Position numbers and translations under genes: made by a program
In this document: positions 26,533 through 34,567 of the stretch, one piece after another
How positions within the stretch are numbered: position 1 is the first letter of the stretch
How the letters are laid out: the number at the start of each line of letters is the position of its first letter
Assembly: GCF_013376105.1 (NCBI RefSeq)
Contig: NZ_JAAMFM010000034.1
Span: 1-44,591, forward strand
Length of the DNA stretch: 44,591 nucleotides
Direction of reading: 5' to 3'
Source of the DNA: Arthrobacter wenxiniae
GTDB taxonomy: Bacteria > Actinomycetota > Actinomycetes > Actinomycetales > Micrococcaceae
Notes under the pieces: generated by a model
Seen by the model: the letters and a program-made list of their open reading frames with translations, nothing else
What the model was told of the DNA's origin: nothing
Database searches by the model: none

Positions 26533-27336
26533 ATGGCGGACACCGGCGGGTCCATCCCGTCCAGGCGCACCGTTCGCGTCCGCAGGATGTCAATCGCCTG
26601 CCAGCTCACGGCGGCCGGCCTGTTTGTGGTCCCGGCCGCCCTTCAGTTCGTTGCCTCGCTCCAGCGCGGGGTCTGGTTCAGCGGATCACGGGCGCCCGCC
26701 CAGGTCTCGATTGAGGACCACCGCTTTGACTACTACCGTGCGTGGGATCCCTGGGAGCACATCGGGACCGCGGGCCAGTTCTTCGGATCAGGGATCCTGC
26801 TCCAGGTGCTCGGCTTATTGGCCATGGCGGCCGGTGTCCTGGCCCAGCCGGTCGCGGCTGCTCGGCGTGTGACAGCAGCAGCCCTGGCCGCCGTCGAGTC
26901 GGTGCTCGTCCTCCTCGTCGCCGCGACGTTCGGGGTCATCGGGACGCATGCCCTCGTCTCGGGGATGAACGGCACGCCATCTCAGCTGCAAGGATCATCG
27001 GCACTGTTCCGGGCGCTGATGGTGGTGGGATCCGCCGGCCTGGTTTCCCTTGGGCCGCTCTGGCGGGCCAAGCTCCGCGCGGCCATGGCCGCGTGCGCCT
27101 TTCGGTTCGGCTCAACCGTGATGGGCTACTTGATAGCCACCTACGTCATGGCGCCCGTCATCAGCGGTGGCCAGCATGACACGGCCCCCGGGCCCGAAAC
27201 GGTTGTCGCGGCGTCAACGGGCCTGGCGGGTGTGGCAATGCTGTTCGCCGTCAGCGCGCTGGCTGGCCGGGGGCCGGCGGTTCCGCCGGCCTTCGGCGCA
27301 GCAGGAAACCGCTCAACACCGCCGCCACGGCTATGA
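26533..27336 (+). CDS. Multi-helix membrane protein of unknown function
   Basis: A 267-residue protein with about six hydrophobic segments separated by short loops. One larger polar loop (residues about 55-80) contains DHRFDYYRAWDPWEHIG. No family is recognised. The start at 26533 has no clear ribosome site; Met19 (RRMSIACQLTAAG) is an alternative. The gene is divergent from the PadR operon across 214 bp and could be its target. Its 3' end overlaps the convergent MFS exporter gene by 86 bp, so the extreme C-terminus may be misassigned. Confidence 0.5.
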   Translation: MADTGGSIPSRRTVRVRRMSIACQLTAAGLFVVPAALQFVASLQRGVWFSGSRAPAQVSIEDHRFDYYRAWDPWEHIGTAGQFFGSGILLQVLGLLAMAAGVLAQPVAAARRVTAAALAAVESVLVLLVAATFGVIGTHALVSGMNGTPSQLQGSSALFRALMVVGSAGLVSLGPLWRAKLRAAMAACAFRFGSTVMGYLIATYVMAPVISGGQHDTAPGPETVVAASTGLAGVAMLFAVSALAGRGPAVPPAFGAAGNRSTPPPRL

Positions 27337-28495
27337 GGAGCGCGAGCGTCCCCAGCCCGGCGGCGAGGCCGGCTGCCGTGGCAACGGCGCCGACTATCAG
27401 CGGTCCCCCGGCGTCGCCGACTTCCCTGCCGATTTCGGCGGCGCCCATGGTCCGGCCCATCCGCTCCGCCGGCGTCGTGCTGGCGAGATGCGCGAAGCCA
27501 AGCGGCGTGGTGATGCCAATCCCGAAGCCGACGACCACCGCGGAAACGTACAGCGTTGCCGGCAGCGGAAGTACGGCCAGCAGCCCGAGTCCCGCCGCGA
27601 TCATGGCCAGCCCCAGCCCCATGCCGCGCGGGGCGGAAAGGCGCCCGCGGTCCCGCATCCTGCCGGCCAGCGGCTGGGTCAGCGTGGAGGAAAGCGCGAG
27701 GAGGGCCACCACGGCCATGCTGGCGAACAAGTTCAGGTGCAGGCCGCTGCCCAGCAGCGGCAGGAAGCCGACGGCCGCGCCCAGTGCTCCCGTGGCGCCG
27801 GCCAGCGCCAGGGTGGGCACCAGGAAGGAACGCCGGGTGCTTTGGCGCAGCAGCTCGGCCACGGTGTAACGAGGGCGCGGGAGGACCGGCAGCCAGGGCA
27901 TGGCAATCCAGACCCACACGGCAGCCACGGCCGAGATGACGGCCATGGACCAGAACAGTGCCGGGAAGCCGCCGGCCCAGATAAGCCCGGCGCCGATCAG
28001 CGGGCCCAGCACATAGCCCATCCCCTTCCACGAACCGTACCTGCCGAAGTAGCGGCCCGCCGCTTCCGGGCCCGCCAACCGCGCCACCGCCGCCGAGGAG
28101 GCCGGGGAGAACGCGGAGGCGGCCGCGCCCTGGCCCAGACGGGCCAGCCCCAGCATGAGGGGGGTGGCCGACGTCGTACCCAACAACGACGCGAGCGCGA
28201 AGCCCACCAGGCCGGCGACGATGACCGGCTTGGCGCCGATCCTGTCGCTGAGGGATCCGAAGAGGGGCTTGAGGACCACCTCCGCGACGTCGTACAGGGC
28301 CAGCAGCACTCCAAAGGTGAGCAGCCCCAGCCCGATGCCGCCGCTTTCCGCACCGAGCCCTGCGGCTATGCTGTGGGCGCCGAAGGCCGTGGTGAATCCC
28401 GCGGCGTAGAGCGGGGCCAGGGTCCGGGCCGAGGGGCTGGTCCCTGGTCCCGACACCGCGCCGACGGCAGCTTTTCTGCGCAACGGGGCGCTCAT
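27251..28495 (-). CDS. MFS transporter coupled to ChrB
   Basis: A 414-residue, 12-helix major facilitator. The loop after helix 2 reads KPLFGSLSDRIGAKPVIVAG, and motif C-like LGLARLGQGAAASAFSPASS follows, both typical of drug:proton antiporters. The second half contains STLTQPLAGRMRDRGRLSAP. The start at 28495 overlaps the ChrB stop (ATGA). A ChrA transporter would be the usual ChrB partner; here an MFS protein occupies the position. It probably exports an oxyanion or toxic compound, but the substrate is inferred from context only. Confidence 0.85.
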   Translation of the reverse strand: MSAPLRRKAAVGAVSGPGTSPSARTLAPLYAAGFTTAFGAHSIAAGLGAESGGIGLGLLTFGVLLALYDVAEVVLKPLFGSLSDRIGAKPVIVAGLVGFALASLLGTTSATPLMLGLARLGQGAAASAFSPASSAAVARLAGPEAAGRYFGRYGSWKGMGYVLGPLIGAGLIWAGGFPALFWSMAVISAVAAVWVWIAMPWLPVLPRPRYTVAELLRQSTRRSFLVPTLALAGATGALGAAVGFLPLLGSGLHLNLFASMAVVALLALSSTLTQPLAGRMRDRGRLSAPRGMGLGLAMIAAGLGLLAVLPLPATLYVSAVVVGFGIGITTPLGFAHLASTTPAERMGRTMGAAEIGREVGDAGGPLIVGAVATAAGLAAGLGTLALLIAVAAVLSGFLLRRRPAEPPAPGQPAR

Positions 28496-29094
28496 TCGGA
28501 GGGGTCCCGGGGTCCGCCCGGCGAAGCGGCACCTGAAGGGCCGCCACCACCCGCCGCGCCGTGCACGGCCTGGTACACCTGCTCGGCATAGCCGTCCAGG
28601 GCGGAGACGCAGGCGCGCAACCGGGTGTCCGCGGCCCTGGCCTGCGGCAGTTCCAGGACGTCGCGCTTCTTCAGGTCGCGGTACCAGCGGCGCAGTCGTT
28701 CCAGGCTCTGCTCCTCCTCCTCGAGCTCGGCGAAGGTGAACTTCCGCTTGTCGATCTCCTTGGCGATCTCGGCCTCGAACTTGCCGCAGTCGGCCGTGAA
28801 CTCGGCCCATTCATCCACGCGCACCGCGGTGAACGCGTCGCGGAGCATGGCGGCCGAGGCCTCATCGCGCGGGGACGCGTCCAGGACGGCCAGGGTCCCG
28901 CCGCCCTTGCGGCACAGCTCGCCGGCGCGGTCCAGGTCCGCCTGGAAGGCCGGGCCCGCGGGCAGCGCCCAGGCCCCGGAGGCGACCGGCACGGCGCCGG
29001 CCTTGCGAAGCTGGCGCCACACGGCCACGCGGTGCCGGGACGGTTCGGAAGGAACCTGAGGCAGGATCAGGACCCACCGGATATGTTGTGTCAC
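28492..29094 (-). CDS. Chromate resistance protein ChrB, N-terminal domain type
   Basis: A 200-residue protein matching the ChrB N-terminal domain: WVLILPQVPSEPSRHRVAVW, then LRKAGAVPVASGAWALP, and a coiled-coil-like stretch (FAELEEEEQSLERLRRWYRD) near residues 120-140. The C-terminal ChrB domain is absent and replaced by a short Gly/Pro tail, which is common in actinobacteria. The GTG at 29094 is preferred; a longer open frame runs into the divergent promoter. ChrB proteins sense chromate and control export operons. It overlaps the MFS transporter gene by 4 bp. Confidence 0.82.
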   Translation of the reverse strand: MTQHIRWVLILPQVPSEPSRHRVAVWRQLRKAGAVPVASGAWALPAGPAFQADLDRAGELCRKGGGTLAVLDASPRDEASAAMLRDAFTAVRVDEWAEFTADCGKFEAEIAKEIDKRKFTFAELEEEEQSLERLRRWYRDLKKRDVLELPQARAADTRLRACVSALDGYAEQVYQAVHGAAGGGGPSGAASPGGPRDPSE

Positions 29095-29104
29095 AATGGG
29101 AATT

Positions 29105-29118
29105 GTAACAGTCGTTAC
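29105..29118. promoter_or_regulatory. Inverted repeat GTAAC-AGTC-GTTAC in the divergent promoter
   Basis: Perfect 5-bp arms (29105-29109 and 29114-29118) lie in the 38 bp between the divergent ChrB and DUF2127 starts. Such a short region must carry both promoters, so a regulator binding here would control both. ChrB itself or a TetR/MarR-type protein are candidates. Confidence 0.45.
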
Positions 29119-29132
29119 GATTCGGAGGAGCG

Positions 29133-29669
29133 ATGGCCAAGTCAATTTCCAAAAGCACGCCCCTGAACACAACGTTCAGGGTCAGTCTGGTCTTGAAGGG
29201 ACTGGACGGCGTGCTGGAACTCGTGGGCGGGATGCTCCTGCTGCTGGTTTCGCCCAGCCACATGAACTCGGTGGTCCGGTTCCTGACACAACACGAACTC
29301 TCCGAGGACCCCCACGACCTGGTGGCCACAACGCTGGTGCACCTGGCAGGAAGCCTGACCGTCTCCGCCACCTTGTTCGGGGCCATCTACCTCCTGCTGC
29401 ACGGCCTGGTGAAGGTGGCGCTGGTTTGGGCGGTCTTGAGGGACAAGCTCTGGGCATATCCGTGGATGGTCGCGTTCCTGCTGGTCTTCATCGCCTACCA
29501 GGGCTACGAACTGGTGGTTTCCTTCACCTGGGGCATGGCGCTGCTGACCGCCTTTGACATCTTCATCGTTTGGCTCACGCTGCACGAGTACCGCGAGCAC
29601 CGGGAGCGGAAGGCCCACCGCAGGGATGAACGACAGCCGCCCACCCAGAATTTACGGGAATACCCCTAG
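29133..29669 (+). CDS. DUF2127-family membrane protein
   Basis: A 178-residue protein with four hydrophobic helices: KGLDGVLELVGGMLLLLVS, HLAGSLTVSATLFGAIYLLL, YPWMVAFLLVFIAYQGYELV and the helix around TAFDIFIVWLTLHEYREH. The LHGLVKVALVWAVLRDKLWA segment between helices 2 and 3 is diagnostic of DUF2127. A basic tail follows. GGAGGAG precedes the ATG. Its TAG stop (29667-29669) lies in the centre of the CsoR-type operator, so this gene abuts the copper island. The function of the family is unknown. Confidence 0.8.
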   Translation: MAKSISKSTPLNTTFRVSLVLKGLDGVLELVGGMLLLLVSPSHMNSVVRFLTQHELSEDPHDLVATTLVHLAGSLTVSATLFGAIYLLLHGLVKVALVWAVLRDKLWAYPWMVAFLLVFIAYQGYELVVSFTWGMALLTAFDIFIVWLTLHEYREHRERKAHRRDERQPPTQNLREYP

Positions 29670-29677
29670 GGGGTATT
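29659..29677. promoter_or_regulatory. CsoR-type copper operator
   Basis: AATACCCC-TAG-GGGGTATT is a perfect 8+3+8 palindrome matching the consensus bound by the copper sensor CsoR upstream of copper export genes in actinobacteria. It is followed by AT-rich sequence (TGTATTTTTATTGTCAA) suitable for a promoter. The downstream remnant is a copper ATPase. No csoR gene is present in the window. Confidence 0.8.
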
Positions 29678-29850
29678 GTATTTTTATTGTCAATGAAGTA
29701 GTCCGTCCCCGGCCAATGCTCGTTCCGGCCGCCGCCACCGTTCAACCCGCAACGCATGAGTTCACCTCGTTCAAGGCCGGTGTGGCTACGCCCGGGAAAT
29801 CCGCCTCCGGGAGTGGAAAGCACGCCGCCCAAGCGGACCACGGGAGCGTC

Positions 29851-30504
29851 ATGGACCACGACGACCATGCCGGGCACACGGCCGGCCAGCATGCCGGGCA
29901 CAGCACGGCCATGTTCAAGAACCGTTTTTGGCTGACACTGCTCCTCTCCGTCCCGGTGGTGTTCTTCAGCCCCATGGCGGGGCACTTGCTTGGCTACGCC
30001 ACACCGCGGTTCCCCGGCTCCGCGTGGATCCCGCCGCTGCCCGGGACCGTGATCTTCGTCCATGGAGGCCAGCCGTTCCTCAAGGGCGGTTGGCAGGAGC
30101 TCAACGCCCGGCAGCCGGGCATGATGCTGCTGATCTCCATGGCCATCATGCTGCTGGGCCACTGGATCGAAATGCGCGCCCTGGGTTCCGACCCCGGAGC
30201 CCTTGACGCCCTCGCCGTGGGCGACCCTGTGGTGGCGGGGACCGTCGCCACGGACAATTCCCTGCGCGTCAGGGTCACCGCCGTCGGTGCCGGGACTGAC
30301 GTGGCCATGGAATCAGCCGGGGTGGCGCCGGCCGGCAACGACCCCCGGGCCGTTCTGTCCATGGCGGACCTCTCCCACGCCAGCTACCGCAAGTGGTGGC
30401 AGAACCTCGTGTGGGCCACGGGCTACGAGGCCATCTCCGTGCCCCTTGGCCGCCGGTGTGCCCGCCTCGGCCGGAGTGGGGCTCTCCCCGCGGAGGTCCG
30501 GTAA
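29851..30504 (+). pseudogene. CopB-type copper P-type ATPase, core deleted
   Basis: A His-rich start (MDHDDHAGHTAGQHAGHS) leads to the first membrane helices (FWLTLLLSVPVVFFSPMAGH) and GTVIFVHGGQPFLKGGWQEL. Then SMAI joins directly to MLLGHWIEMRALG (residue 99/100), LDALA joins to VGDPVVAGTVATDNSLRVRV (122/123), and TAVGAGTDVAMESAGV joins the A-domain end to the hinge after the P domain. The CPx motif, DKTGT phosphorylation site and nucleotide domain are absent. All three junctions keep the frame. The tail (LSMADLSHASYRKWWQNLVW) is lost by a 1-nt insertion after SVPL. About 217 residues remain of roughly 700. Confidence 0.75.
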
Positions 30505-30578
30505 TTCGGCTTGGTGCAGCCGGCCTCGTAGAGTGCTCGACCAGCCGACCCCCTTGCCTCCCACGGAAAGGATCCGCC

Positions 30579-30740
30579 GTGCCCGCACTCCGTCATCTGC
30601 CCGCGGCGGGGTCCGTGCTGCGCTTGGGCGGCCTGCTGGTCAGGGTCCTTGCCATGATCGCGGGGATCCCGGGCATGCACGTGACCGGCGGTCCGGCAGC
30701 GGCCATGGTTCCCGCCGGCCGCTGTTCCCACCCGAATTGA
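30579..30740 (+). pseudogene. DUF6153-like protein, truncated
   Basis: A GTG at 30579 with AAAGGA upstream encodes PALRHLPAAGSVLRLGGLLV, then RVLAMIAGIPGMHVTGG and PAAAMVPAG. This matches the N-terminal membrane anchor of DUF6153 proteins, which sit beside DUF305 and copper genes in actinobacteria. Homology stops after PAG and the frame ends at 53 residues, where about 140 are normal. The His/Met-rich exported part is lost. Confidence 0.5.
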
Positions 30741-30741
30741 G

Positions 30742-31032
30742 ATAGCGTCCAGCTGCGCGCCGTCCGGCAGCCCCGGCCCCATGGCAGTGCACGGCGCCTG
30801 TGTGCTGTCCTTCGGAGTCGGGGCTGTGTCCGTGTCCCCGTCCGGAACCATCGCCAAACCCGCTGACGTCATGTTTGCCCAGATGATGGCCAACCACGAG
30901 GGCGCCGTTGAGATGGCCACAACCGAGGTCGGCGGCGGCACGAACGCCGACGCCGTCGTGCTGGCCAAGGGCATCGTTGCCCCGCAGGAAACTGAGATCA
31001 AGGCCATGAAGCACTTGCCCGCCGCACTCTAA
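30742..31032 (+). pseudogene. DUF305 lipoprotein, 5' truncated
   Basis: The frame carries a residual lipobox-like IASSCAPSGSPGP but no hydrophobic signal helix. It then has the DUF305 core ADVMFAQMMANHEGAVEMAT, EVGGGTNADAVVLAKGIV and a normal end (ETEIKAMKHLPAAL). The family's metal-binding MMIPHH motif reads MMANHE, losing a residue and one His. DUF305 proteins are exported copper-binding proteins. A single deletion may have removed the end of the DUF6153 gene together with the start of this one. Confidence 0.6.
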
Positions 31033-31110
31033 CGGCCCCATGCGGTCCTCTTGAGGTGGTGGTTCCGCAACCGTGTGGAGCCACCACGTCGCATCCATTC
31101 CAAGCCCCCG

Positions 31111-31560
31111 GGGGGCGCACAGCTCGGTCATGTCCACGGCATCAGCGTGGATCCGGCCACGAGCAGGATCTTGCTCGCCACCCACAACGGCCTCTTCGAC
31201 GCCGGGAAAACCTGGCATGTCGTGTCCCGTGCAGGCGAGCAGGACTTCCAAGCCCCGCCGGTCAGCGGCAACGGCCTGGCCGGCTTCGACGGGCAGCTGC
31301 GCACCTCCGTTGACGGGATCATGTGGACGAAGCCCACAGCAACGTTTGCCCTGGCCGTGCTGGCGGGGAGCCCGGCGTCCGCCGTCGTCCTGGCCACCAC
31401 ACACGAGGGCCTGCAGAGGTCAACCGACCACGGAAACGCGTGGCACCTTGCCGAAGGGGCCCCGTCATGCAGTTTGTTGCCTTCGCTTCCGGCAGCGACA
31501 CGGCTCCCGCGATCGCCGCCGGCCGGGACTGGATCCGCGGCGAACTGCCCATGATGGAGT
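31111..31560 (+). pseudogene. F510_1955-type glycosylhydrolase/sialidase-like beta-propeller, fragmented
   Basis: Recognisable pieces are LGHVHGISVDPATSRILLAT followed by HNGLF, then GKTWHVVS, NGLAGFDGQLRTSVDGIMW, and STDHGNAWHLAEGAP. In the next frame the sequence continues VMQFVAFASGSDTAPAIAAG, a frameshift in a C/G run near 31463. The order matches F510_1955-type proteins (BNR-repeat propellers) found in actinobacterial copper clusters, but several blades and the C-terminus are missing. There is no start codon with a ribosome site. The tail 31561-31727 has no assignable gene. Confidence 0.6.
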
Positions 31561-31727
31561 CGCGCCAGCGGGCGCCTCGGTTCCGGCCGCGGAGGCCGCC
31601 CGGTCCCGGGCCATGGAGCGGGAGTGGCAGCGAGCGCAGCTCCCCGCGGCCATCCGCGAACTGGTGCTCGGGGACCAGCAAAACCGCAGCGCCATCTGCT
31701 GGCACGCCTTCGACGGCTGAGTGGGCC

Positions 31728-32495
31728 CTACAGCACCTTGGACAGGAATGCCTTGGTGCGCCCGTGCTGCGGGTTGGAAAGCACCTCGCGGGGGTTGCCG
31801 GATTCCACCACCACGCCGCCGTCCATGAACACGAGCGAGTCGGCCACCTCGCGTGCAAAGCCCATCTCGTGCGTCACCACGATCATGGTCATGCCGGTGC
31901 TGGCGAGTTCCTTCATGACATCGAGCACCTCCCCCACCAGCTCGGGGTCCAGCGCGCTGGTCGGCTCGTCAAAGAGCATCAGCTTGGGGTCCATCGCCAG
32001 CGCCCGGGCGATGGCCACCCGCTGCTGCTGGCCCCCGGACAGGTGGGCGGGGTAGTGTCCGGCCTTGTCGCCCAGCCCCACCCGCTCCATGAGTTCGACG
32101 GCGCGCTTGCTCGCCTTTGCCTTTGACATCCCCTTGACCCGCATGGGGGCCTGGATGATGTTCTCCAGCGCCGTCAGGTGGGGGAAGAGGTTGAAGCGCT
32201 GAAACACCATGCCGATCTCGCGCCGCTGGAAGGCGGCCTCCCTGGGCCTGAGCTCATAGAGCTTTTCGCCCTTTTGGCGGTATCCCACCAGCTGCCCCTC
32301 GACGGACAGGCGGCCGGCGTCCACCCGTTCCAGGTGGTTGATGCAGCGCAGGAAGGTCGACTTGCCGGACCCGCTGGGGCCCACCAGGCACAGCACTTCG
32401 CCGGTGTTGACGGTCAGGCTGATGCTTTTGAGCACCCGGTTGGATCCGAAACTCTTGGAGACGCGGTCCGCGTGGACCATGGGCGTGCCGTTCAT
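31728..32495 (-). CDS. Polar amino acid ABC transporter, ATP-binding subunit
   Basis: A 255-residue ATPase of the GlnQ/HisP (PAAT) family. Walker A is GPSGSGKS, the Q loop is [18 protein letters not shown], the signature is LSGGQQQR, Walker B is [14 protein letters not shown] and the H loop is [19 protein letters not shown] and MGFA are typical of amino acid importers. The start at 32495 overlaps the permease stop (ATGA). Together with the permease and binding protein it forms a complete importer with a single permease gene, implying a permease homodimer. Confidence 0.93.
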
Positions 32496-33424
32496 TGCTT
32501 GTCTGCCTTCCGCTGCCCGGAACCGCGGGCAAACCGCTTTTCGATGAAATGCTGGCCCACCATCAAGACCGAGGTGAACAGCAGGTACCACAGGGAGGCC
32601 ACAATCAGCAGCGGCACCGGCGTGAACGTCACGGCGGAGATGCCCCGCGACACCCCATACAGGTCGATGCTCAGTGGAATGGCCGCCACCAGGGACGTTG
32701 TCTTGAGCATGGAGATGACCTCGTTGCCCGTGGGCGGAATGATGATCCGCATGGCCTGCGGCACTACCACGAAACGCATCGTCTGGCCCCACGACATCGC
32801 CAGGGCCCGTGATGCCTCCTCCTGTCCCTCGTCGACTGAGAGCAGGCCCGCGCGGACAATCTCGGACATGTAGGCGGCCTCGTTGAGGGCCAGGCCAATC
32901 ACCGCCGTGACGAACAGGTTCGTGAAAATGTCGTTGTGGAAGGAGACCCACGGCGCCATGAACGGCACGCCGATGGTCAGGACGGGGTAGATCAGCGAAA
33001 CGATGCCCCAAAAGACCAGCTGCACATAGACCGGCGTGCCGCGGAAGATCCAGATGTACAGCCAGGCGACGCTCTTCACCACGGGGTTCGGGGAGAGCCG
33101 CATGATGGCCAGCAGCAGGCCAAGGACAATGGCAATGACCATGGCGTAGACCGTCAGCTGGAGCGTGACCAGGGCGGCCTGGCTGATCCTCTTGTCGAAA
33201 ACATACTTGCCGACGTCGGCCCAGCCAAAGTCTTCGCGCTGGGCCGCGTCCAGGACAAACACGGCCAGCATGAGGACCAGGACCACCGCGACCAGGACCC
33301 GCCACGGGTGGCGCAGCGGGATCGCCTTGATGGCCTCCCCCTCCTGGTCGGCAGCCAGCGGCCCGCTCCCCGCCGCGGCCGGGGCGCCCTGCCCGGGAGC
33401 ATCCTGCCCGGGAGTATTCAGCAC
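32492..33424 (-). CDS. Polar amino acid ABC transporter, permease subunit
   Basis: A 310-residue inner-membrane protein of the His/Glu/Gln/Arg/opine permease family. A Gly/Ala/Pro-rich cytoplasmic N-terminus and an extra helix near residues 40-60 precede the core. The core starts [20 protein letters not shown], then [20 protein letters not shown], and the EAA loop is [21 protein letters not shown]. The GTG at 33424 lies 3 bp after the binding-protein stop. N-terminal extensions of this kind are common in actinobacterial versions. Confidence 0.92.
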
Positions 33425-33427
33425 GGG

Positions 33428-34330
33428 CTAGCCCTTCGCAGCCACGTTGATGGTTGCCGTTTTCACGCCACCGCTTTCCACGCCCCACTTCGCGAGGATC
33501 CGGGCGTAGCTGCCGTCGTCGATCAGGGACTGCAGGGCCTTCTGAAGCACCGGCTTGAAGGCGGAGTCCTTGGCCACCGGCATGCCGTACGGGGCAACCT
33601 CGAATGCGTCGCCGGCAGTCTGGAGCTTCTTCTTCGTCTGCGAAATCGCATACAGGGTGACCGGCGAATCGGCGCTCATGGCGTCAACCTGCCCCACCAC
33701 CAGGGCGTTTGTTGCCTGGTCCTGCGCATCGTACTTGAACACGGTGATGGCGGGCTTCCCGGCGTCGGTGCAGGCCTTGGACTTGGCGGGGACCTCATGG
33801 GTGTCCTCATAGGTCGTGGCCTGCACGGCCACCTTGAGTCCGCAGGCGTTGTTGGGGTCGACGGTCTTGCCCGCCGGGGACGCCCACTGGATGCCGGCCG
33901 AATAGTAGTTGACGAAGTCGACCTGCTTTTCGCGTTCCACGGTGTCCGTGAAGGATGACATGCCCATGTCGTCCTTGCCGGCCTTGATGGCGGGCAGGAT
34001 GTTGTCAAAGGTGCCGATGTCGAAGTTGACCTTCAGGCCCAGGACCTGGCCCAGGGCATTCGTCAGGTCCACCGACCACCCTGCGGGCTGGCCGTTGGCG
34101 TCCTTGAATTCATTCGGCGGGTAGTTGTTGGCCATGCCAACGTTGAGGACGCCGGCGCTCTTGATTTTCTCCGGAAGGGCGGCCGCGATGGCGCTGTCCT
34201 TCTGGACGACGGCGTCCTCCGGGGCCGCCGCGCTGCCGCTGCCGGGCGCGGACGCGCTGTTGTCGACGCAGCCCGTCAGCATCAGGGCGGCGACCGCGGC
34301 TGCGGCGGGAAGGAGGTAGATGCGGCGCAT
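33428..34330 (-). CDS. Amino acid ABC transporter substrate-binding lipoprotein
   Basis: A 300-residue family 3 solute-binding protein. The signal peptide [21 protein letters not shown] ends in the lipobox LTGC with Cys21. The domain starts [20 protein letters not shown], continues [17 protein letters not shown] and contains the hinge segment [20 protein letters not shown], typical of SBP family 3. [16 protein letters not shown] segment forms the second lobe. AAGGA is spaced 7 nt before the ATG at 34330. Ligand specificity, probably a polar amino acid, cannot be read directly. Confidence 0.92.
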
Positions 34331-34413
34331 GGTGAAGTCCTTAATTCTTGGTGTTGCCGGACAAGCCGGAGGGTGGGTACGCTTCCGCCCGGACCAAAAA
34401 ATGATGGTGCGGG

Positions 34414-34437
34414 ACCGAACCTCTCCCCCAGGGTTCG
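34414..34437 (-). promoter_or_regulatory. Hairpin with downstream T run in the ABC operon leader
   Basis: On the minus strand CCGAACC and GGTTCGG form a 7-bp stem with a 10-nt loop. After 14 nt a TTTTTT run (complement of 34395-34400) follows, about 65 nt before the binding-protein ATG. It may be an attenuator or a processing hairpin. The separation between stem and T run weakens a plain terminator reading. Confidence 0.35.
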
Positions 34438-34567
34438 GCGTTAGGTGAAGCATCTCCACGGATCACGGTGCGCGGCGCGTCGGCGAAATTGCCTGTTGTC
34501 CGGGTCACACCGGGCCACCCGTTGAATCCAAACATACAGGCATGGCCCATCAACCGGGCCCCAGCCA

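Follow-up and report, generated by a model that had tools for sequence, protein, structure and literature searches.

Does an exact CsoR-type operator that stands in front of shortened copper genes still serve the cell, or has it merely outlasted its operon? The question is raised by a locus of Arthrobacter wenxiniae, in which a preliminary description recognized a dead copper cluster behind a perfect CsoR-type palindrome and considered that the perfection of the operator amid so much decay was telling. The window, that is, the whole stretch of DNA that was analysed (44,591 nucleotides), corresponds to contig C28 in an 88-contig draft assembly of 4.33 Mb; the near relatives of this genome are Arthrobacter. 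The reading put forward here, to which a probability of about 0.88 is given, is that of a dead CsoR-type copper operon, broken in this lineage by internal deletions and neutral drift. Its leader RNA, a decaying copy of an element that is conserved in relatives, raises a second question, which is considered separately.

The locus and its intact counterpart

In relatives, the cluster runs in the order promoter/operator, leader, copZ (encoding an HMA domain), copB, DUF6153-like gene, DUF305/CopM gene and F510_1955 propeller gene, as read gene by gene in L041, L043 and L044; in L044 a multicopper oxidase comes after the propeller gene, and the DUF305 frame was missed by the frame picker. Of the 11 relatives aligned, ten have copB as one uninterrupted frame. 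When aligned to the clusters of nine relatives, the window is collinear with them from 29660 to ~31490, with large gaps between the matched pieces (L049 was chained from 29850 in this alignment, and from 29660 in the other one, with 11 relatives). The remnants thus lie in the order of the intact clusters, and their collinearity and large internal losses bear out the description of the locus as a dead copper cluster behind a CsoR-type operator. The features are collected in Table 1.

Table 1. Features of the copper remnant and its borders, in window coordinates
Feature	Position	Strand	Evidence
DUF2127 gene, upstream neighbour	29133..29669	+	Pfam PF09900, 108 bits
Promoter remnant: -35 TTTACG, 17-nt spacer, -10 TATTGT	29651..29679	+	8/12 matches
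CsoR-type operator ATACCCCTAGGGGGTAT	29660..29676	+	Exact palindrome ATACCCC-TAG-GGGGTAT
Decaying copy of the leader RNA element	29686..29754	+	cmsearch with R1, 56.8 bits, E 1.1e-14
Scar: copZ and start of copB gone	29755..29850	+	382-465 bp lost in alignments of nine relatives; boundaries approximate
copB remnant, 217-aa ORF	29851..30504	+	Alignment to 11 relatives
DUF6153-like remnant, low confidence	30595..30713	+	Weak blastn matches to L042, L043, L044, L050; boundaries approximate
DUF305/CopM remnant	30833..31032	+	PF03713 41.6 bits (cut-off 27); CopM 44.2 (cut-off 90)
F510_1955-type propeller remnant	31123..31523	+	NF045728 89 bits (cut-off 175)
Flanking DNA, remnant of small frame; right edge	31524..31727	+	86-87% blastn to L119

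The DUF2127 protein encoded upstream is 79-80% identical to those of G010 and G004. MFS, ChrB_N and DUF2127 genes (window 27251-29669; L041 11324-13781) are adjacent in several relatives. In G015 the MFS/ChrB_N/DUF2127 genes neighbour an intact copper cluster on a contig of 385 kb, the cluster lying ~2.4 kb downstream from DUF2127. In G004 a Mtr gene follows DUF2127 after 116 bp, and copper genes are absent between them. The window also carries an amino-acid ABC transporter operon (31728-34459) between the copper remnant and the Mtr gene; the transporter operon is absent from this place in G004. The copper material ends at ~31523; beyond it, 31524-31567 and 31595-31759 match DNA that lies between padR and gntK in G021. 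The small frame found there in G021 (L119 4889-5277) is shortened in the window too. The cluster may have been imported at this place or lost elsewhere.

Remnants of the copper genes

No intact copper efflux or chaperone gene is left in the cluster. The first gene, copZ, is absent, 382-465 bp being missing between the leader and copB. Within copB, deletions of 93 bp (~30140-30148), 195 bp (~30209-30217) and 993 bp (~30276-30287) are seen against all 11 relatives, together with one additional base near 30441 in 9/9 alignments; ~85 bp are missing near 30485 in 3/9 alignments, the others placing this gap differently. What remains is one open frame from its ATG (29851) to the copB stop of the relatives, the frameshift cancelling out. 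The catalytic motifs of P-type ATPases (DKTGT, TGES and GDG), as well as CPC and CPH, are missing from it, and it reaches 57.9 bits against TIGR01511 (cut-off 397).

The four genes that had been named in the preliminary description are the right ones, with two reservations: copZ had been missed, and DUF6153 is borderline. This is the weakest of the names: L044, the only intact relative compared with the profile, reaches 27.2 (cut-off 27.7), and the piece in the window gave no family match in the profile search; its position and weak DNA matches suggest the assignment, at low confidence. The DUF305 gene has lost 267 bp relative to L047, and 270 bp relative to L043, L045, L049 and L050, the gap being placed otherwise in the other five of the nine-relative alignments. 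By this deletion the two internal repeats of DUF305 appear to have been joined. The propeller gene carries an internal deletion of 150 or 153 bp near 31197-31203 in all nine relatives with both flanks matched, and 93-151 bp (mostly 131-144) are lost before 31124, the boundary of this loss at the start being approximate.

The window thus resembles the CsoR-type copZ-copB operons of Arthrobacter and relatives in gene order, in an operator placed between the -35 and -10 hexamers, in the leader and in DNA similarity, but it differs from them in that copZ is gone, the other genes are internally deleted and no whole copper gene is left.

Relaxed constraint and neutral time

The strength of constraint on copB was assessed over 177 codons, comparing the window with 11 references and each relative with 10. 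Second codon positions that are otherwise invariant have changed in the window in 10 cases out of 157, against 0-3 in ten relatives and 6/163 in the most divergent one, L051. For invariant amino acids the corresponding counts are 6/127 in the window, 0-4 in the ten relatives and 14/141 in L051, and, taken alone, the amino-acid counts set the window apart less clearly, since that of L051 is higher still. Branch lengths point the same way. The branch leading to the window measures 0.071 at second and 0.275 at third positions, whereas the other branches sum to 0.172 and 3.47, respectively; given the ratio of these other branches, the third-position length of the window would predict only ~0.014 at second positions. 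Purifying selection on copB is relaxed in the window.

The same 177 codons, on a tree in which the window and L051 are grouped with a support of 0.86, yield a neutral era of ~0.06 substitutions per site, a rough figure obtained by arithmetic on branch lengths. Under this value, 14 bases of the operator would stay unchanged with a probability of ~0.43, and all 17 with one of ~0.36.

Operator and promoter

The palindrome is exact, as had been described, and it is the only site in the window at up to two mismatches (shuffles give a mean of 0.04). Five exact operator sites occur in the draft genome, with 0 for the reversed-pattern control. It lies between the -35 hexamer (29651-29656) and the -10 hexamer (29674-29679) and overlaps the promoter, a position in which CsoR would be expected to bind. 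The promoter, with 8 of 12 matches, falls below the threshold of the promoter scan (L132 has 10/12) and is weaker than in most relatives: among 83 of these, 60 score 9-10, 13 score 8 and 10 score lower.

The survival of such a perfect operator is unremarkable and no sign of selection, contrary to what had been supposed, since the estimated neutral era is so short that 14 bases persist by chance with the probability given above. Its position within the neighbouring gene could suggest another cause. The stop codon of DUF2127 (TAG, 29667-29669) falls within the operator, and the palindrome together with its T-rich tail (29659-29686) reads as a terminator. It could be argued that the palindrome survived because it is the intrinsic terminator of DUF2127, with GTATTTTTAT after its 8-bp stem and the stop codon in the loop. 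A terminator scan does match at 29659-29677 and gives no match in L132, the sole relative scanned, and T makes up 7 of the 9 nt that come after the palindrome, a content that only one of 80 relatives attains. One scan match is, however, the level of shuffled sequence (mean 0.9), a stop codon in the loop would place ribosomes on the hairpin, and the survival of the palindrome is explicable without selection. This explanation is consequently regarded as unlikely.

Deletion junctions and the reading frame of copB

Bacterial pseudogenes can decay by deletions between short repeats, through slippage. Direct repeats were sought at the junctions, as the preliminary description had advised. Two of the three copB junctions have them. 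At junction 1, 8 of 11 relatives have an exact 9-bp repeat, and no longer one was seen at this spacing (0.4% of positions); at junction 3 the repeat measures 6 bp in three, 4 bp in six and 2 bp in two of the 11, and is again the longest at its spacing (0.7% of positions); the junction sites themselves are included among the positions counted for both percentages. Junction 2 has little repeat (1-5 bp). At the propeller junction the overlaps amount to 6-19 bp in 6 of 9 alignments, with 7 bp in L041, L042 and L043, as measured by the overlap of the aligned pieces.

All four cleanly sized deletions, the three of copB and that of the propeller gene, are multiples of three. It could thus be proposed that selection has made the 217-aa copB remnant into a new membrane protein, inducible by copper, which kept the His-rich start and the hydrophobic segments and shed the ATPase domains. 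Its frame indeed stays open to the old stop through three deletions of multiples of three and a cancelling frameshift, the His-rich start is retained and the operator is present. The phase of the repeats themselves accounts for this in-frame loss. In the copB genes of relatives, 218 of 254 repeats of at least 9 bp (86%) and 4734 of 7292 of at least 6 bp (65%) are in phase, an excess that codon-position bias predicts; since most repeats are already in phase, in-frame loss needs no selection, and in-frame deletions as a sign of selection are ruled out by this test. The excess of change at invariant second positions, the loss of the catalytic motifs and the decay of the other genes of the cluster also speak against a new protein, which is considered very unlikely.

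The dead operon shares with known pseudogene decay the repeats at two of the three copB junctions, the loss of constraint and the restriction to one genome. It differs in that several genes lost blocks and the copB frame is still open, which the phase-biased repeats explain.

Copper genes in other genomes and elsewhere in this one

A search of the genus found matches in 15 of 23 genomes, the window's own included, that is, in 14 of 22 others. The copB matches in these other genomes stop at the same junctions; a few continue beyond junction 3 for up to ~40 nt, with 74-77% identity, the right-hand piece being matched separately. As the matches break at the same junctions, none of the genomes seen shares the deletions, and a decay common to relatives is not seen in this search. 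Among plasmids, none of the 59 matching records (6 in near mode) covers 80% of the remnant.

Within the draft genome, the search for csoR that had been advised led to an intact CsoR-CopA locus on contig C15, with an operator of its own. In the CsoR of this locus the Cys, His and Cys positions are as expected, by a residue rule that we take to mark it as a copper sensor. CopA elsewhere in the genome shows 39% identity. The accompanying search for a second copper cluster yielded CsoR-like proteins, CopA and other P-type ATPases; no second copB of the same kind and no other DUF305 match were found in the draft genome. Three further CsoR-like proteins (C33, C14; L039, L040) lack the copper histidine, and we assume them to be CstR-like; those on C33 are encoded near rhodanese-like frames, as judged by eye. 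Three more exact ATACCCC palindromes lie on C33 and C14, the contigs of these CsoR-like proteins.

Titration of CsoR by the operator, or a new copper-induced transcript from it, had been suggested in the preliminary description, and both are conceivable but conjectural. It is a stronger claim that the operator was retained as a decoy that titrates CsoR. It is exact and an intact CsoR is encoded elsewhere in the genome, but it is one of five exact sites and its chance survival is as high as ~0.43, so that retention for this purpose seems highly improbable. That the short genes are an assembly artefact is scarcely credible: the genome is a draft in many contigs and the assembly is the only basis, but the many deletions lie in the contig interior, they are accompanied by substitutions at conserved sites, and the repeats at their junctions are far shorter than the usual assembly k-mers.

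Proposed course of the decay

Under the preferred reading, that of a dead operon, a series of internal deletions would have cut the promoter/operator-leader-copZ-copB-DUF6153-like-DUF305-propeller operon. Some of these deletions probably arose by slippage between short direct repeats, one may have joined the two internal repeats of DUF305, and substitutions and small indels would have come alongside them. The operator and leader may persist because little neutral time has elapsed; nothing shows selection on either of them in the window. If the promoter is still active, CsoR would be released in the presence of copper and a short transcript, beginning with the leader hairpin, could be made; it would encode only the 217-aa copB fragment, devoid of catalytic motifs. 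We infer this order of events, the residual transcription and the binding of CsoR.

A leader RNA beneath the operator

In relatives, the leader extends ~105 nt from promoter to start codon and is strongly conserved. RNAalifold (21 sequences) predicts a long hairpin with helices P1 (GUUG/CARC) and P2 (UGAA/UUCA), a short helix in the middle and a tip stem that varies. The covariation term of this structure is small, and 4 of 16 pairs have changed on both sides somewhere. The local alignment has a structure score of -8.1 against -0.6 when shuffled (0/100 shuffles as low), and a global MAFFT alignment gives weaker support (-2.5 against -0.5, with 5/100 as low). The middle helix is tentative; the pairs that fit it best seem to differ between genera.

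R1, a model of the 67-nt element with no operator sequence in it, matched 71 of 395 genomes of the family, a count that takes in the genome of the window; they are spread over 5 of 32 genera. An order-level draw searched with R2 gave 7 of 396. Six of these belong to this family and include the genome of the window, and the seventh is a marginal match from elsewhere; strict filters were used for R1 and R2, and weak matches can be lost under them. Of 85 matches with R1, 83 were examined; the copy in the window and one duplicate were set aside. A strict operator lies just upstream of the element in 80 of these 83 copies, at a spacing of 10-12 nt. This spacing puts the first G of the element ~7 nt past the -10 hexamer (in L132), so that the element probably begins at the transcription start. 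The next ORF is an HMA or P-type ATPase gene in 61 of the first 76 copies by automatic pick; 15 are unresolved, some of them visibly copZ that was misread (short or out of frame).

Covariation in the element is moderate, and its folding z-scores are good. In 72 distinct rows, 95.6% of cells are paired (93.0% when shuffled, 16-56% when slid), 24 cells have changed on both sides (8.2 when shuffled), as have 4 pairs (2.2 when shuffled, the observed number being reached by 19 of 500 shuffles), figures to be read with the fact that this alignment was fitted to the model. The mean folding z-score of the whole element is -2.0 (n=77, dinucleotide shuffles), with 64/77 below -1; that of the tip region alone is -1.7, with 55/77 below -1, although the automatic cut of this region is poor in a few copies, such as L230.

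The copy in the window is decaying, too. One non-standard pair is flagged by cmsearch, and by eye it differs at 3 of the 23 columns that are invariant in alignment A2.

The leader was also sought outside this kind of cluster. G025 and G029 match copB and give no match to the leader model, so the leader is not obligatory for the cluster. No leader match was found at the CsoR-CopA locus of the window's genome, nor at the 39 DUF2127 loci searched out of 56 named. Similar leader DNA is found by blastn on seven plasmids of Paenarthrobacter, Arthrobacter and Pseudarthrobacter. Rfam has no match in the element at gathering, its one glutamine riboswitch hit being at chance level and outside the element. 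In the titles and abstract openings of the matches listed, mostly from open-access literature, no description of the leader or of the copper island was found.

As to its function, a leader peptide (a short GTG/TTG...TAG frame where the leader begins) was rejected, because the spacing to the second conserved block shifts the frame among relatives, as judged by eye. In 60 of 83 copies CTGACA, CTGACATG, is found at the start codon, complementary to the UGUCAG at the 5' end of the leader. Sequestration of the start codon by this pairing is a lead and no more, because the 5' variants TGCCAG, TGACAG and TATCAG mostly come without a compensating change in CTGACA. A stabilising 5' hairpin or a regulatory switch would fit the modelled structure.

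Metal-related cis-regulatory leader RNAs include riboswitches. The element resembles these in being a 5' hairpin with a conserved core and a variable tip, upstream of metal genes, but it differs in that it has no Rfam match and no known ligand, lies nearly always beneath a repressor operator, and occurs in one family with one marginal match outside. By its predicted structure and distribution, the leader is a good candidate for a new cis-regulatory RNA family. On a narrow balance of probability, it would be a 5'-terminal family of the Micrococcaceae whose closing helix would take in the first bases of the transcript, and which would add, beneath CsoR, a second layer of copper control acting on mRNA stability or on access to the start codon; the copy in the window would be a dying one.

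Implications

The dead operon is real and ordinary, but instructive. In these copB genes a frame that stays open across deletions says little for selection, and a short operator that is perfect among decayed genes says little for function. The leader could be of greater consequence. Within a single actinobacterial family, a 5' end that is conserved and structured and lacks an Rfam counterpart lies below CsoR operators, and a second layer of copper control can thereby be put to a direct test.
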